A DNA stretch of 15,202 bases from Candidatus Peribacteria bacterium (GTDB lineage: Bacteria > Patescibacteria > JAEDAM01 > Absconditabacterales > Absconditicoccaceae), in the NCBI GenBank assembly GCA_031280545.1, contig JAITGP010000006.1:1-15202 (forward strand). Direction: 5' to 3'. The position numbers and the translations under genes are program-made. Under the pieces are notes generated by a model. That model saw only the letters and a program-made list of their open reading frames with translations, did no database searches and had not been told where the DNA came from. This document shows positions 3,992 to 12,296 of this stretch, piece after piece. The first letter of the stretch is position 1; each line of letters begins with the position of its first letter.

Positions 3992-6900
3992 ATGACTAAC
4001 CTTGAACTGATGGACTCTATCATCAAATTCCGAAAAAGCGACAATACATTCCAACGCTCGATTGACGAGAGAAACGAAAAAATGGCATTCAGATTTTTTG
4101 ATGGTCCTCCTTTCGCCTCTGGAACACCACATTACTGACACCTCCTCGCTGGAGCAATTAAGGACTTGATTCCAAGATATATGACGATGCGTGGCTATCA
4201 AGTAAAGAGAAAGCGAGGTTGGGACTGCCATGGACTCCCCGTGGAGAAAGCCGTAGAAAAAGCTCTTGGAATTGATGGGAAAAGAGATATCGAAACAAAA
4301 ATCTGAATTGAGTCTTTTGTAGAAAAGTGTAGAGCGTATGTAAACGATACCAACGAGATTTGGAAGCGATTTATCGACCACACTGCAAGACGAGCTGATG
4401 TAGATAATGAATACAGAACGATGGATTTGGATTTTATGGAAAGCGTAATCTACTGTTTCGATAAAATCTACAAGGATAACCTCGTGTATAAAGGATTTAA
4501 GGTGCAACGATACTGTCCAAGCTGTGCCACACCGTTGGCGAATAATGAGGTGAGTGAGGGATATGAAGACAAGACAGATACTGCGATTACCGTGAAGTTT
4601 CAATTAAATCCTATGATCACCCAAGCAGAACGAGGAGAAAAATTTGAACTTACTGAAGATGGTGTAGGACAATATGTTAGAGCTATTATCAAAAATGATA
4701 AAGGAGATATCTTGCAGATTTTTAACACTCAAAAACATAAATTTGAAGCACCTGGTGGAAAAGTAGATAAAGGAGAAGATGCTGAACAAGCAGTTGCTAG
4801 AGAGCTCAGAGAAGAGATTGGTGTAGAAATCCAAGAAGTACACTATCTGGGATCATTCAAAGAAATTGTGGGTGGGCTATGCCTGCTTCAGCATACCTAT
4901 GAAGTAAAAATTGTAGAAGAACCTCAGATACAAGAAGCTGGTACTCATTCTCAACTTGTTCGAGTAGGAATAGAGCCATCAGAAAATGAGCTCGGATTTG
5001 GAGTAAGAATTGAAGGAAATATCATAGAAGAACCCGAAGAACTCATGTCTCAGTTTTGGAATATTTACACTTATGTTAAAGAGATCCCACAGAAAATAAG
5101 TTTGTCATTCTGAGTGGAAGCCGAAGGCTGAAACGAAGAATCTAGGACAACAAATACTTTGGCTTCGTCACTACGCTCAGAATGACGTGTGTATTTCCTC
5201 GCTCGAACTACTACCCCACGAACGCTTCCGAGTAATATGTTCCTCGCGACAGGAGCCGACATTCAATACAGTATGCTGTATGATTTCGCCAGCAAAGAAT
5301 ATTACATTCTCGCGACTAACCTCATCAAAAAATACTACAAAAATCCTGAAGACTACCTCACCATTAGAACCTTCAAAGGAAAGGAATTGCAAGGACTGCA
5401 TTACAAACCGCTTTTCGACTATATCGTGAAGAGCAATATCAAAGAAGCATATACATCAGATTTTTTTCAAGTTCTAAATCCCGATTTTGTGAGTACGGAA
5501 GATGGAACTGGAATAGTCCATATCGCTCCGACCTTTGGAGAGGAGGATTTTAATGCTGTGGCAAAATTGCTCGGTGCGAAAAATGCTCTCGAGTGGCTCT
5601 TTATGCCTGTGAATGAGTATGGAGAATTTGACGAACAGATTTACGACTACACAGGAGAAAGTGTATTGAACATCAATAAAACTATCATTGAAAGACTAAA
5701 AGAGGAAAGAAAGCTGATTAAATCCGAAAATATTACCCATAGCTACCCGCATTGCCGAAGATGCCACACACCGCTGATTTCTAAGGCAATGTCGAGTTGG
5801 TTTATTAAAGAGCAAGAAATGAATGCTCAGACGTGGAAAGACGCAGAAAAAATGAATTTTGTCCCTGAAAGTGTGAAAAATAGATTTGTGAATGGGTTAC
5901 AACAAGCTCCTGACTGGAATATCGCGAGAAATCGTTATCGAGGAAGTCCGTTGCCAATTTGGCAGAATGTAGAAGATGAAAATGACCATTTTTCCGTAGG
6001 AACACTAGAGGGAATCTATCAGCTTTCTAGATCTGGTAGTAAAAATATCACGAAACACATTTTGATTAGACATGCACAAACGGATTATAATTTGGAGAAA
6101 AAGTTTGATATTTTAGGGAAAGCAAGATGTACAGAGACAGGAAGATTACAAGCAGAAGCTATCAAAGATCAGTTGATAGGACAAAATATTCATCAGGACA
6201 AAGATTTGGTGATCGTGATTTCTCCGCTGGAAAGAACCTGGGAAACAATTTTGCCGTTTTTGAAAGAGGTCTATTCTGAGACGGAGCTTGCAGAGAGCTA
6301 TAAAAACTATGAAGAGGTGAAAAAGCAGTATGAAGAGGTATATCATGCAGGGAATCTTCATAGCTATGTACAGGATTCACAAGTTCAACAGCATTTTGAG
6401 ATCGGACGCAATTTATTTGTGGATTTTCGTGTGACGGATACTATTAGCCCCAAAGCACAAGATACTGTCAGCGATATCAGTTTACACCTTGCTTCTATAG
6501 AGGAATTTTGTCACCATGATGAAACAGGAGAGACTCTCAAACAGAAAATTGAAAGATGTAAGGAATATATGTATGATCTTAATAAAAAATACCCAACAAA
6601 GACAGTTATTACGGTGTCTCACGGAGGATCTCTTGCATCAATGAAGATCGCTTTTAGAGCATTTGATTATCTAAAAGATGGGCATAAAAACACACCAAAT
6701 AATGCTGAGTTTTCTGTACATTACCGAGATAACGCGAGAAATACTGAAGTGGATTTGCACAAGCCGTATGTGGATAGCTATCGATTCATGAAAGACGGGA
6801 AAACATATAAACGTATTCCTGAAGTGATGGATTGTTGGTTTGAATCTGGATCCATGCCATTTGGTCAGGAGCATTATGTTGGACAAGATGAAGTGAAGCT

Positions 6901-8875
6901 GGATAGTAGCGTTTGTAAACTCTCCTTAATGAGACATGGACAATCAATCAATAATAAAAAGAGAGCTGAGGGAACCTTGGAAGGATATGATTATCGAGAT
7001 GATACAAATGAACTTAGTGAAAAAGGAAAATTACAGGCAAAAAATAACATCAATAAAATAGAAAAAGAAGTGAAAAAGGCTGATTCAGTTTTCTATATTT
7101 CTTTATTGTCCAGAGCAGTGCAAACTATTGAGCCTTACTTTGAAAAAACCTTTGGATGGAAATTGACTCAACATCCTGTATACCTTGAGACGAAGAAACG
7201 CTTTGATGAAGCGATGAAACATGGAACGTTCCGTTGGCAAGATTTCATAGAGATTGAGGTAGAGAAAAACATCTATTTGGATGCGAGAGTCATGGAGCGA
7301 CATATAGATAGTAATGATATGGAATATATCCAACGAGTGAATAACCATGAACCTCAGCGAAACGAAATTGAGGACAGAGCGACTAATTTTTTGAAAGGAA
7401 TCAAGAAGCACGCAGGAAAACAGGTGATTGTGGCTACTCATCGATTCTTCATTTTCCAATGCAAGAGATATTTTGATGGTACTAATTACCAGCTCCATGA
7501 AGATCCAACTAAAACAGAAGTAAGTATCCATAATGGAGAACTGTATAATTTTTACTTAGATGTGGGAACAGGGAAACCTAGAGAGGAAAAAAATCAGACG
7601 TTTACCGCTGATTTCATCGCCGAAGGACTCGACCAGACGAGGGGACGATTTAGATCCCTTCATGTGTTGGGGCATGCTATTAAGGGAGGGAATGCTATGA
7701 AAAATGTTGTAGTAAACGGAATGATCCTCGCAGAAGACGGAAAGAAAATGTCTAAAAGTCTGAGAAATTATCCTGATCCTCAGCAGCTTATCGAAAAACG
7801 AGGAGGAGATAGTTTTAGACTGCATGTACTTTCGGCTCCTGTGGTCAGAGCAGAACCGATGAGATTTAGCGAAAAAGGCACGGAGCAGGCTTTCAAGGAT
7901 TTCACCCTCCCCTTGCAGAATGTATTCAACTTTTTTGAAACTTACGCGAAGATTGATAACTGGAAATCTGATGGAACGGAGGTGTATTTTTCTACCCCCT
8001 TTACGAAAGAGGGCGAAGGGGATTCGAACGCGGAACTCATTCTCAGAATCAATCCAGATCTCATCATCAGCTGAAATACACTTATCCTACAAGAAACTGC
8101 TGAGAGCATCCAGAGGATTCTTTATGACTATACTCATAAAGAAATAGAAATTCTCTCTCAACAGCCTGATCACTATTTTGATCTCTTACAACAATACAAA
8201 GGAAAGAAAATTTTGATTGTATCTGATGAGGGGACTTTTGGGAAATTACGACATCAATTATATCCTAACCAATCAACCTCCCCTACCTCCCATCAAAACG
8301 AGGACAAACCTCCTTACAAAGGAGGGCAACGAGAAGTAATTGAGCTTCCAATTTATGTATTAAGCAATGACCTAGATAAATGGATTTTGGCAGAATTGAA
8401 TAAAACACTGATTGAAGTGGATGGACATTTACAAAATTACCTTCTCGACGAGGCGACAAAGTCTGCGATGGATTTTATGGATAAACTCACAAACCGACGA
8501 CTCAGGAGAAGTAGAAGACGTTTTCGAGCGAATGGAATGAACGAGGATAAATCCGCTGCCTACGCAACGCTCTATCACGTTTTGAAAAGATATTTGCAAA
8601 TCCTCGCACCATTCACCCCATTCATCACAGAATATTTGTGGTTGCAACTCGCCGACTTCACGGAAACATCAACGGAAAGAGATTTAACCGCAAAAACTCC
8701 TTCTTCTATACATTTAACCTCTCGACCTATCGCAAACGAGCATTACCTCAATGAAACGCTAATCGAAGAAACAGAAACCGTTCGTAAAATCATCAAGCTT
8801 GCTCTGTTTATCCGTGCAAAGAATAAAATCGCTGTAAAACAGCCTTTGCAGAAGTTGAAGATAAAGATTGATTAA
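3992..8875 (+). CDS. ileS: Isoleucyl-tRNA synthetase with nested Nudix and histidine-phosphatase domains
   Basis: Charges tRNA-Ile with isoleucine. The 1627-codon frame runs from ATG 3992 to TAA 8873-8875 and is open only if UGA is Gly (4136, 4304, 5111, 5129, 5183, 8072). Conserved IleRS blocks, in order: TPHYGH class I signature (residues 45-50, its Gly encoded by UGA), [19 protein letters not shown], the editing strand [10 protein letters not shown] (406-415; the usual Trp is Arg), [15 protein letters not shown] (505-519), [17 protein letters not shown] (about 642-657), [30 protein letters not shown] (about 1251-1256), and [10 protein letters not shown] in the anticodon domain. The block style matches the eukaryote-like IleS2 type. 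Inserts: Nudix 204-371, palindrome-encoded peptide about 371-399, histidine phosphatases 682-911 and 969-1197, a degenerate phosphatase-like stretch 1334-1449. Without them the core is about 850 residues. The C-terminus ends at [11 protein letters not shown], so the usual last domain is absent. It is followed by valS after 29 bp. Confidence 0.95.
4601..5104 (+). other. Nudix hydrolase domain inserted in the IleRS editing domain
   Basis: IleRS residues about 204-371. The Nudix box is perfect: G-x5-E-x7-REUxEExGU is met by [20 protein letters not shown] followed by IGV (about 4745-4820). A typical Nudix beta strand precedes it ([16 protein letters not shown]), as does the KFEAPGG entry to the box. 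The domain lies between IleRS strand ITVKFQL and [10 protein letters not shown], that is, within the CP1 editing domain. Nudix enzymes cleave nucleoside diphosphates linked to another group (8-oxo-dGTP, Ap4A, ADP-ribose, NADH); which substrate applies here cannot be told from the sequence. The catalytic glutamates are intact, so it is probably active or was so recently. Confidence 0.9.
5104..5186 (+). repeat. Palindromic repeat element translated within ileS
   Basis: An 83-bp element with exact 11-base inverted ends, GTCATTCTGAG (5104-5114) and CTCAGAATGAC (5176-5186), and the internal GAAACGAAGAATCT motif. From memory, sequences of the type GTCATTCTGAGCGAAGCGAAGAATC are common dispersed repeats in many bacteria. 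It lies directly after the Nudix domain and keeps the reading frame. It supplies about 28 residues rich in Ser, Glu and Arg, with three in-frame TGA codons read as Gly (5111, 5129, 5183). The IleRS fold resumes just after it (YFLARTTTP). Confidence 0.85.
6035..6724 (+). other. Histidine phosphatase domain 1 inserted in IleRS
   Basis: IleRS residues about 682-911. It shows the full histidine phosphatase (phosphoglycerate mutase-like) signature: [10 protein letters not shown] with catalytic Arg693 and His694, SPLERTWET with Arg748, and [13 protein letters not shown] with His877. It sits between the IleRS blocks RGSPLPIW and [10 protein letters not shown], in the linker that leads back to the second half of the catalytic fold. 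Members of the family dephosphorylate sugar phosphates, nucleotides or proteins; the substrate here is unknown. No UGA codon occurs in this stretch. Confidence 0.88.
6896..7582 (+). other. Histidine phosphatase domain 2 inserted in IleRS
   Basis: IleRS residues about 969-1197. Signature: [12 protein letters not shown] with Arg981 and His982, [10 protein letters not shown] with Arg1041, and VIVATHRFF with His1150 (the usual SHGG is THRF). It lies between [13 protein letters not shown] and [13 protein letters not shown], two IleRS blocks that are normally only a few dozen residues apart. It resembles domain 1 beyond the catalytic motifs ([10 protein letters not shown] against [10 protein letters not shown]), which suggests the two come from one source. 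Catalytic residues are present, so activity is possible. Confidence 0.85.
7995..8013 (+). repeat. Small palindrome at the left edge of the third ileS insert
   Basis: CCCCCTTT-ACG-AAAGAGGG, a hairpin with one mismatch, translated as part of STPFTKEG. It resembles the CCCCCTTTACGAAAGGGGG type of dispersed palindromic repeat. Confidence 0.55.
8309..8325 (+). repeat. Small palindrome at the right edge of the third ileS insert
   Basis: CCTCCTT-ACA-AAGGAGG, a perfect seven-pair inverted repeat, translated within DKPPYKGGQ. It has the same design as the palindrome at 7995-8013 (pyrimidine arm, ACR loop, purine arm), so the two bracket the insert. Confidence 0.6.
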
Positions 8876-8904: not shown

Positions 8905-11373
8905 ATGGCAAATAAATATAATTTTCAGGAATCTGAAGCCAAATGGCAACAATTCCGAGAAGAACATCAGACGAATGCGTTTGACCTCACAACAACCGAT
9001 CCCAGTAAAATTTTTTCTATTGATACCCCACCACCAACGGTAAGTGGAAAACTTCACATTGGACACATTTTTTCCTATACCCAAGCGGAAATCATTGCAA
9101 GATACAAGAGGATGAAGGGATTTAATGTCTTTTATCCGATGGGGTATGACGATAATGGTATTCCAACCGAGCAACTCGTAGAGAGAGAATTGAAAATAAA
9201 CATTAAAGAAATGGACAGAAATGACTTCGTGGAAAAATGTTTGGAAGTGAATCAGAAATATAGAGACTTATATAAAACTCTCTGGCAATCACTGGGATTT
9301 TCTATTGATTGGAAAAGGACCTATGCAACTATTTCTCCTGAGGTACAACAGCTCGTACAAAAGAGATTTGTGGAAATGTATAGAAACGGAGATATCGTAT
9401 GAAAACAATTTCCTGCATTGCGATGTACTAAAAACCAGACTACCATTGCTCAAGCTGAGACTGAAGAGAAGGAATTCAACGAGTTTTTCAACTATTTGAA
9501 TTTCACGCTTGATGACGGAGAGAAACTCGTGATTGCTACGACCAGACCAGAAATGTTGCCCGCTTGTGTAGCAGTATTTGCTCATCCAGACGATGAAAGG
9601 TTTGCAAAATATATTGGAAGACAGATTACGACTCCGCTCGGTGATACGGTACCTTTGCTCTGAGATGATAAAGTAAAAATGGATAAAGGGAGCGGAGTAG
9701 TAATGTGTTGTACTTACGGTGATGAAACCGATGTATATCGAGCTCAGAAACACCATCTACCAGAAAAAGTAATCATCAGTAGATATGGAACCATTCAGAA
9801 TTCTGGTTGTGAAGTGATTGAAGGAATGAAAGTGGACGAGGCGAGAGAAAAAATTATGGAATACCTCGAAACTTTACCTAATATTATCGTGAAACGCGAT
9901 CCTATTATTCAGGCAAAGAAAATCTCTGAAAGAGGGAAAACGCCGATTGAGATTATCCCTGTCTATCAGCGATTTGTGAACCTTCTCGACAAAAAAGAAA
10001 TCCTTTTGGGATTGAATGATAAAATGGCACGACACCCAGAATTTATGAAGAAAAGATCCAATGACTGGATCAATAATCTACAACGAGATTGGAATATTTC
10101 CAGATCCAGAAAATTCTGAATTCCTATACCAATTTGGTATGAAAAGGAAACAAAAAAGATTCTGCTTCCAAGCGAGGATCAGCTTTCTAAAGGGTTTGTA
10201 GATCCGACTCGTGATCTGCCAGAAGGATATACTGCCGACCAAATCGAACCTGAAACCTTGGTACTCGATACTTGGTTCACCTCTGGACTTTCACCGCTAA
10301 TAAATGAAACTTTTTTGAAAAGGGAGGGACGAACAGGGGGAAATATTACACCAATGTCACTCAGACCGCAAGCTCACGATATTATTAGAACTTGGCTTCT
10401 TTATACAACACTCCAAAGTTATTTCAGAACGGGAGATATTCCGTTTAATGATGTGATGATTTCGGGGCACGTGTTGGCGGGGAAGAGTGAAAAGATTTCC
10501 AAATCCACGGGAAACGCTAAAGTGGAACCAGAAAACTTGATTAAACAACGAGGAGCTGACGCAGTGAGATACCGAACCTCTGGAGGGCAACTGGGAAAAG
10601 ATATGGTATTTGATGAAGAAGAATTGAAAAAAGGTCAAAAGCTGGTCACGAAACTATGGAATGCGTTCCAGTTTGTGAAAATGCAGTTGGAAGGATTTGA
10701 TCGAAAGACTCAAGACGAACTCTCTCAAGGTAATTTATACTCAACAGATCAACGAATTCTGGATAAACTCTACCTTACTATTGAAAAGATGAATACTCAT
10801 CTCGATAATTTTGAATATGGACTGGCAAAAATTGCTTTTGAAGAGTTTTTTTGGGCAGATTTCTGTGATAATTATTTGGAACTGATAAAAGTAAGACTCT
10901 ACAAACCAGAACTCTTTGACGAAGGAGAGAGGAAGAAAAAGAGTGGACAGCAGACTTTATGGAAAGTTTTTGAAGCGATTATCAGACTTATCGCACCGTA
11001 CTTACCCCACGTTACCGAAGAGATTTATCAGGAGTATTTCATGAAATACCCTAATTTTGATCACGTTCCCACATCAATACATAAGACAAAATATCCAGAG
11101 GTTAGCGATAAAATGTGGGCGTATGACCTAGTTGAACAAATGAAAGTACTACAAAACAATATGCAAATTACTTTGGAAATTGTGGAAATGGTCAGAAGAT
11201 ATAAATCTGAAAGCCAAATTTCTATGGGAGCAGAACTCAGCAAACTCGTTATCACCGCGAGTGAAGAAGAAAGAAAAGCCATTCAGCTTTTTGAAGACGA
11301 TGTGAAAGGAGTGACGAAGGCGAAGGAGATTGAATGGCAGGAAGGAAGCTTAGGTGTGGAATGTGTACAGTAG
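8905..11373 (+). CDS. valS: Valyl-tRNA synthetase
   Basis: 822 residues from ATG 8905 to TAG 11371-11373; attaches valine to tRNA-Val. UGA-Gly codons occur at 9400, 9661 and 10117; the last gives SRKFGIPIPIW, where a Gly is conserved in the family. Motifs: PPPTVSGKLHIGHIF (HIGH, about 44-54), MGYDDNGIPTE (the DDNG-PTE form found in rickettsial and archaeal-type ValRS), editing domain with TTRPEMLPACVAV and GSGVVMCCTYGDETD, DTWFTSGLSPL, KISKS in place of KMSKS, and the anticodon domain from TKLWNAFQFV. The Zn-type Cys pair expected before IEIIPVYQ is absent (SERGKTPIEII). The length is slightly below the usual 850-950, with no long C-terminal coiled coil. It begins 29 bp after ileS and probably shares its transcript. 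The leader is pyrimidine-rich, without a Shine-Dalgarno sequence. Unlike ileS it has no inserted domains. Confidence 0.96.
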
Positions 11374-11381
11374 GAAATTTT

Positions 11382-11409
11382 AAAAAAAGCCCTGTGAAGG
11401 GCTTTTTTG
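11382..11409. terminator. Bidirectional intrinsic terminator between valS and the aldo/keto reductase gene
   Basis: AAAAAAGCCC (11383-11392), loop TGTGAA, GGGCTTTTTT (11399-11408). The stem is perfect and has a T-run in both directions. It serves valS from the left and the convergent def-tsaD-AKR operon from the right. Confidence 0.9.
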
Positions 11410-11429
11410 AAGGGACAATTCTGCTTACC

Positions 11430-12296
11430 TTACTCAAACTGGTTAGCTAATTGGTCTATGCTGATCCCTCCTTGATTATTTCGGTCAATCTTGACGCTAT
11501 CAAATTCTTCACTTCTAAAGTCGTTCAATTGTTGATAATCAGCTTTTTCTAAGGTGAAATTGAGGGAAGCGATATTCTCTTGTATCCTTTCTGGATTGGA
11601 GGTTTTTACGAGCGGAAGAAGTCCCTTTTCTTTGATAATTCGATTGAGGAGGATTTGGTTTTGAGTTTTGTGATATTTTTCGGCAAGAGTGACGAGAAGG
11701 GAGTAATTTCTGTTTGCGGTTCTGTTTCTTCTGAGGGGTTGGTAGCAAACGAAAGCGATGTTGTGAGCTTTACAGTAGTCTAGGACACCGATATCTTCGT
11801 AGATTTTGCATTCAAAATTATAGATTCCCTCAAAGATGGCTATGGGGTAGCTGGGGTATAGATCACTAAGTTGTTGTAAATTTGTATTGCTTATTCCCAA
11901 GGATTTTGCTTTACCTTTTGTGACTAATTTTTTCATCTCTTTATAGGTATCCAATAGGCTGAGCTTTGTGAAAGCAGGAGAATGAAGCATTAAACAATCA
12001 ACATATGCTATTCATAGTAGAGATAGATAGGTATCCAATTGCTTTTCGATATCATTTTGTTGTTGAATGATTGGCTCTAATTTAGTAGTGATATATATAT
12101 CATTACGATTAATTTGTCCAATGAATTTACCTAATAAGTGCATTACTTCTCACTGCTGGTAGAGAAAACTGGTATCAATATAGTTCTCTCAGAGATTGAG
12201 AGATTGGAGTAATCCTTGCAGAGAAGTTTGATAATCATTAGTATCTAGTCTGAATGTTCCGATTCCTATGGGGAAAGTATTGTTGATATTGAGCAT
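11430..12296 (-). CDS. Aldo/keto reductase
   Basis: 288 residues from ATG 12296 to TAA 11430-11432, with UGA-Gly at 12189-12191, 12150-12152 and 12012-12014 (residues 36, 49, 95). Read with UGA as stop, only the last 60% would appear. The catalytic tetrad of the aldo/keto reductase superfamily is in place: Asp41 and Tyr46 (IDTSFLYQQGE), Lys72 (YITTKLE) and His105 (CLMLHSP). Downstream come KGKAKSLGISNTN and the cofactor-binding end LLPLVKTSNPERIQEN, typical for NADPH-dependent members. Its substrate cannot be told. The ATG overlaps the tsaD stop by one base (TAATG), so it is probably translated by coupling. It is the last gene of the operon; the shared terminator lies 21 bp after its stop. 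Confidence 0.92.

Follow-up and report, generated by a model that had tools for sequence, protein, structure and literature searches.

We favor, with somewhat better than even confidence and judging from sequence, the reading that the gene at positions 3992 to 8875 of the window (the whole stretch of 15,202 nucleotides analyzed here) encodes one isoleucyl-tRNA synthetase (IleRS) with charging and editing motifs, in whose loops a Nudix domain and two histidine phosphatases (HP1 and HP2) are tethered as likely independent phosphohydrolases, beside a third phosphatase-like piece (HP3) devoid of catalytic motifs. According to this model, the core would charge tRNA-Ile and edit normally, and each insert would be a self-contained domain acting on small phosphate compounds (e.g., nucleotides, dinucleotides, or phosphometabolites), produced in a fixed ratio to an essential enzyme. 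The modules would come by in-frame insertion at CP1, CP2, CP3, and the linker between the catalytic and anticodon domains, and older modules would decay, as HP3 may have done, or disappear.

The synthetase core and its genetic code

Under translation table 25, the stretch 3992..8875 (+) is one open frame of 1627 amino acids plus stop. The N terminus (MTNLELMDSII) is identical to the beginning of the ileS product of L021, one of the two nearest relatives, which supports the ATG chosen. A Pfam search with this ORF returned tRNA-synt_1 (6.9e-107), Anticodon_1 (7.5e-30), His_Phos_1 in three stretches (2.3e-28), and NUDIX (6.1e-13). The 15 best PDB matches were all IleRS, far above ValRS and LeuRS. 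Solved IleRS align with the window core across its full length, only piecewise, around the inserts; none bearing Nudix or HP inserts was seen among the PDB matches listed. An earlier note on this DNA had described an unbroken frame with the IleRS hallmark blocks and a three-domain architecture inside it, and the ORF, Pfam, and motif positions agree.

Core segment A (3992..4609, +) holds the first half of the Rossmann fold, the class I signature HYGH (4130-4141; residues 47 to 50), and the start of CP1. Segment B (5189..6019, +) comprises the CP1 editing domain, with the T-rich motif TTTPWTLPSN (5207-5236; residues 406 to 415) and the H/D motif (5519-5548), as well as a portion of the second Rossmann half. 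The conserved DCWFESGS block (6830..6853, +) lies between HP1 and HP2. Segment D (7601..7966, +) contains the DFIAEGLDQTR block (7610-7642) and KMSKS (7745-7759; residues 1252 to 1256), and segment E (8366..8872, +) is the anticodon-binding domain. In a 26-row IleRS alignment, T406-408 and D519 were invariant and H510 nearly so; we take these to be the T-rich and H/D motif residues of CP1 editing. AlphaFold predictions were obtained in two pieces, model A (residues 1 to 967, mean pLDDT 81.7) and model B (residues 910 to 1627, mean 66.0), and model A matched the fold of IleRS editing domains with a TMt of 0.78 to 0.80 (1ue0, TMt 0.80). The window core very likely charges tRNA-Ile in the usual way.

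The best solved relatives by both sequence and fold are IleRS2 or eukaryote-like IleRS (Priestia megaterium 8c8v and yeast 8wnd). These share with the window IleRS the HXGH motif, the CP1 editing domain, KMSKS, and the anticodon domain, but the window IleRS lacks the type 2 C-terminal domain (DUF5915): the ORF ends directly after the anticodon domain, and Pfam did not report DUF5915 in it. Twelve proteins of relatives examined by Pfam carry this domain at the C terminus, and it is seen in Gracilibacterial IleRS. The C-terminal tails of Absconditabacterial IleRS that reach the end measure 5 residues or fewer, compared to a domain of about 195 amino acids elsewhere.

The reading of the frame depends on the genetic code. 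At 17 alignment columns where 24 non-SR1 IleRS have Trp, the window codon was CGA at 8 and TGG at 7, and at 19 Arg columns defined against the same 24 proteins, CGA never occurred in the window ileS (0/19). Since CGA fills Trp columns and never Arg columns, it stands for Trp in the window. CGA and CGG take the same role in related Absconditabacteria, and a CGA/CGG-to-Trp reassignment has been predicted for this group (Shulgina & Eddy 2021, PMC8629427). Read in this manner, 26 apparent Arg residues of the window IleRS become Trp, the length remains 1627, and the blocks TTTPWTLPSN, NRYWGSPLPIW, and GLDQTRGWF turn canonical. The earlier note had used code 25 alone. TGA as Gly does open the frame, but that code is incomplete here, as the second reassignment (CGA as Trp) is needed.

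Hydrolase domains nested in the synthetase

All four inserts fall within connecting peptides, in line with the surface-loop placement proposed earlier. At site 1, in CP1, the Nudix domain (4607..5101, +; residues ~206-370) has a complete Nudix box, GX5EX7REUXEEXGU, at 4757-4825 (residues 256 to 278). HP1 occupies site 2, in CP2 (6044..6706, +; residues ~685-905), with R693, H694, R748, and H877, and HP2 occupies site 3, in CP3 (6896..7570, +; residues ~969-1193), with R981, H982, R1041, and H1150. Both thus retain the active-site RH(G/A), the Arg, and the second His of histidine phosphatase branch 1. HP3, at site 4 (7994..8269, +; residues ~1335-1426), is truncated and has lost both the R-H pair and the second His; judged by these residues, it is a decayed remnant. 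The description of a Nudix domain, two histidine phosphatases, and a degenerate third inside an IleRS therefore holds, with Pfam and the catalytic motifs in agreement. An in-frame palindromic repeat (GTCATTCTGAG arms) lies at the Nudix/CP1 junction (5104..5186, +), and a short GC-rich palindrome is found 3' of HP3 (8307-8325), also inside ileS.

In model A, the Nudix domain was predicted with a pLDDT of about 91 and HP1 mostly with 87 to 96, except for a poor loop at residues ~825-850. In model B, the HP3 remnant scored mostly 86 to 94, and HP2 reached 80 to 93 over much of the domain and about 40 to 60 around its RHG motif. Structure matches of model A included phosphoserine phosphatase (4ij6, TMt 0.72); on the model, we assigned the phosphoserine-phosphatase matches to HP1. 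The 50 matches of model B listed were all synthetases, and this search gave no confirmation of the HP2 and HP3 folds. Structure prediction of the whole chain, which the earlier note had proposed, thus yielded confident folds for Nudix and HP1 but only a partly confident one for HP2. In sequence comparisons, CTP pyrophosphohydrolase and RppH came closest to the window Nudix, and phosphoserine phosphatase 1 came closest to HP1; these matches name the family and not the substrate.

Turnover, conservation, and sources of the inserts

Relatives were collected from 34 loci at first, after which 353 genomes of the class were searched and regions were fetched for 60 of them, some cut at contig ends. 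The loci were chosen partly by long frames, so the occupancies given below are not population frequencies. Thirty automatically collected loci (L035-L064), many of them duplicates and some from otherwise unsampled genomes, are absent from the insert table and the trees. The core tree has 91 rows, as 4 of 95 loci (L018, L019, L070, and L102) were dropped for having too little core sequence. The 91-row tree and an 89-row tree were built with FastTree, and branches in the HP tree are often weak. For the site grid, proteins were cut at core anchors, the gaps were classified by family, and the classification was cross-checked by Pfam on a sample of proteins.

Among the classified gaps, site 1 held only Nudix; site 2 held HP, a serine hydrolase (PF06821, RBBP9-like), or both in tandem; site 3 held HP in the window, L076, and L078; and site 4, the catalytic/anticodon linker, held HP. 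In the core tree, the Absconditabacteria (SR1) clade comprises 31 rows, every one of which has at least one insert; 21 carry the combination of Nudix and two HP domains, which was confined to that clade. Insert-free rows number 27 of 91, outgroups included. With site-cut rows excluded, the minimum numbers of presence changes on the 91-row tree were 5, 17, 3, and 7 at sites 1 to 4, respectively. Gain and loss of Nudix, HP, and RBBP9-like serine hydrolases at the same loops extend to Gracilibacteria and some other Patescibacteria. Comparison with IleRS of other Absconditabacteria and Gracilibacteria, which the earlier note had suggested, thus revealed insert kinds common to the same loops. Its description of the architecture as unusual is apt for synthetases in general, but the feature is lineage-wide and not peculiar to this gene.

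The combinations vary widely. Read by eye, Nudix is accompanied by HP1 and HP2 in the fragment P0002 and by HP1 and an intact HP3 in P0005; all four sites are filled in P0004, where HP3 is degenerate, and P0003 contains Nudix but neither HP1 nor HP2. HP1 is likewise missing from L021, and most relatives have no HP2. The ileS product of L011 (complete genome CP006913.1) contains Nudix, HP1, and HP3. Pfam identified Nudix, HP, serine hydrolase, and HP in L077 (1932 aa); Nudix, serine hydrolase, DUF559, and HP in L079 (1749 aa); and three HP domains in L078 (1845 aa). The DUF559 domain of L079 (residues 974 to 1081) sits in frame within core D, an extra loop beyond the four sites; we had considered it a site 3 insert, which its position rules out. 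Past the HP at site 2 of L078, roughly 290 residues match no profile or Pfam family and are mostly probably a second insert. Presence at a site can apparently change recently, because L084 has a Nudix domain where L105 has a plain hairpin and the preceding DNA of the two is about 90% identical (by eye).

Pfam placed an HP at the CP2 position in L022, L024, and L025. Of 145 genomes sampled across the phylum, 10 of which belong to the class, at least 19 had a match across the L022 CP2 HP, 15 of them outside the class; these are single match spans taken without Pfam, and most other genomes among the matches listed skip the stretch. We also considered that ileS might be broken at CP1 in many Gracilibacteria, which show short frames there. 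This was ruled out, as the genes examined are continuous under code 25. No second IleRS was detected in the genomes of the two nearest relatives (G001 and G002), where only weak synthetase-family or Nudix matches appeared.

The catalytic residues of the inserts are largely kept. The Nudix glutamate motif, [RK]E-u-x-EE, was present in all 37 Nudix inserts; the strict full box was found in 24, including that of the window, and 13 deviate. The R-H pair and second His were found in 38 of 39 HP domains at site 2 (the exception is L114) and in 3 of 3 at site 3. At site 4, the catalytic residues are kept in 37 of 47 (35 scored by script and 2 by eye) and lost in 10, the window among them. The serine hydrolases have x-S-x-G, Asp, and His in all 7 aligned copies (by eye). 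For dN/dS, 22 pairs were compared, of which the 14 with a core dS below 1.5 were used, the deeper pairs being saturated. Omega ranged from 0.01 to 0.31 at insert sites and from 0.03 to 0.22 in the core; within a given pair, the inserts mostly had a somewhat higher value than the core. By these ratios, the inserts are under purifying selection that is mostly weaker than that on the core, which could partly reflect the avoidance of misfolding.

No further HP was found in 3 of 5 genomes with an HP-bearing ileS; the HP insert may therefore be the sole such enzyme of some cells. Nudix matches elsewhere numbered 2 to 13 per genome in each of 11 genomes, so the Nudix insert fills no lack. Long-frame matches to HP (8 genomes) and to Nudix (11 genomes) lay only in ileS, a weak result, as frames break at TGA.

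We searched for the origins of the modules. Free-standing kin of the kind that the earlier note had proposed to look for were obtained for HP2 but not for HP1, whose two matches are both IleRS fragments. The HP2 relative, P0124 (233 aa, Met start, 61% identity), is apparently free-standing, and the HP2 module thus seems also to stand alone. Site 3 may have received HP2 on more than one occasion, since the HP2 of the P0004 IleRS shows only 47% identity. A protein fragment, P0125, has an HP2-type phosphatase after an apparent membrane segment. No donor of the L084 Nudix was found within its own genome, only weak matches to the L066 serine hydrolase were seen elsewhere in G105, and no viral carrier of the inserts was confirmed. 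Diverged copies of the palindromic repeat at 5104-5186 occur in 2 of 5 related genomes (G002 and G003); it had no match in plasmids, and the strict pattern CCCCCTT...AAGGGGG was absent from all 7 genomes searched. Because this repeat lies in frame within the window ileS, mobile repeats may be one source of loop insertions.

In L001 and L021, the two nearest relatives, ileS is present as two ORFs split at the HP2 site (CP3); the window gene itself is continuous. In L021 (gap 10241-11225), the N-terminal half ends just past the conserved HYVG and is followed by an ORF for a UMPH-1 nucleotidase, and the C-terminal half has its own ATG. The gap in L001 (10901-12640) contains a DUF559 ORF and a DUF4357 ORF. 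The DUF559 ORF (10926-11499) lies between GC-rich inverted repeats and has the look of a mobile element, and the repeat recurs in partial copies elsewhere in the genome. With respect to introns, the L001 gap had no Rfam match and the L021 gap had two snoRNA-like matches far below cut-offs. The Pfam results for the window ORF included no intein domain.

Competing explanations and known systems

For Nudix, HP1, and HP2, a clean-up activity, one of the two readings offered in the earlier note, is favored over neutral passengers, given the preserved catalytic motifs and a dN/dS far below 1; Ap4A and aminoacyl-AMP would be no more than candidate substrates. The opposite reading, which casts the inserts as neutral or selfish passengers surviving as in-frame DNA in tolerant loops, with no role tied to a need of the cell, is in our estimate unlikely. 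It accounts well for the repeated gain and loss on the core tree, the Nudix of L084 that L105 lacks downstream of about 90% identical DNA, the palindromic repeat in frame within the same gene, the DUF559 ORF flanked by inverted repeats in the split L001 ileS, and the decay of HP3. It does not account for catalytic residues retained over deep branches, for omega far below 1, or for the recurrence of a few hydrolase families in place of random domains. Turnover thus speaks against a tight role, and the kept catalytic sites speak against pure passengers. Since gains and losses repeat across the tree, no single insert appears essential, and each module seems dispensable, HP1 being absent from L021 and P0003 and HP2 from most relatives. 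An assembly artefact fusing several genes would fit a single 15 kb window, but we give it hardly any credence: the same architecture recurs in many independent assemblies, including the complete genome CP006913.1, on which ground we rejected an assembly join.

Alternatively, the inserts might protect IleRS by hydrolyzing aminoacyl-nucleotide-type inhibitors or by-products (Ap4A or misactivated aminoacyl-AMP) at the target, and their turnover would then follow changing inhibitors. One enzyme gains a phosphatase, a pyrophosphohydrolase, and an esterase-like serine hydrolase at fixed sites, as this would predict, and the long-frame matches, which for HP (in 8 genomes) and for Nudix (in 11 genomes) were confined to ileS, point the same way, weakly in view of the TGA breaks. 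The editing domain, however, looks intact, so the inserts are no replacement for editing, and we regard protection as quite improbable. We likewise attach a low probability to a broader proposal, in which exchangeable hydrolase cassettes dock on the IleRS of both Absconditabacteria and Gracilibacteria, at fixed loops, and break down poisons or by-products of the aminoacyl-nucleotide type at the enzyme that these attack; such embedded immunity would track the threat and would in places have split the gene. Very unlikely, in our view, is a mainly structural or tRNA-binding role that would compensate for the C-terminal domain that Absconditabacterial IleRS lacks. The tails of 5 residues or fewer in place of a ~195-aa domain, the presence of an insert in 31/31 clade rows, and the retention of the dead HP3 as a folded piece beside the anticodon domain would agree with such a role. 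Against it, Gracilibacteria carry inserts and DUF5915 together, and active-site conservation would be left without explanation.

Tethered phosphohydrolases, as we prefer to read the inserts, have partial parallels. Nested hydrolases in class I synthetases and Nudix-HP chains are already known: the CP1 editing domain of IleRS, ValRS, and LeuRS is a hydrolase nested in the connective peptide, and mycobacterial MutT1 joins a Nudix domain and a histidine phosphatase in one chain. The editing domain is general and edits the misacylated product, whereas the window inserts are additional to it, have different folds, and are specific to certain lineages. MutT1 is an end-to-end, stand-alone hydrolase, whereas in the window both families are nested in separate synthetase loops. 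Natural split synthetases such as the LeuRS of Aquifex exist; the two-ORF IleRS of L001 and L021 resembles it but is broken at CP3 and has its halves separated by other genes. Rickettsia palindromic elements are palindromic repeats kept in frame within protein genes; the window repeat differs in its arms and borders a domain insert. Among titles and abstract openings in the open-access literature, our search yielded nothing on these IleRS inserts, on sets of enzymes nested at constant loops and exchanged between members of a bacterial group, or on split IleRS.

Synthetases are often considered conservative, and here one takes up whole enzymes at fixed loops. Related genomes show kept catalytic sites, decaying inserts, and two genes split at the same loop, so that the way in which nested enzyme domains arise becomes directly testable in this genome series. 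IleRS also offers scaffolds that tolerate several enzymes simultaneously, and uncultured bacteria with small genomes gain a set of unexplained candidate activities linked to translation.

Elsewhere in the window, the ORF at 8905-11373 is presumably a further class I synthetase, valS-like by its motif. On the reverse strand of the segment 1-1719, 5S rRNA lies immediately upstream of 16S rRNA, with no 23S rRNA in between.
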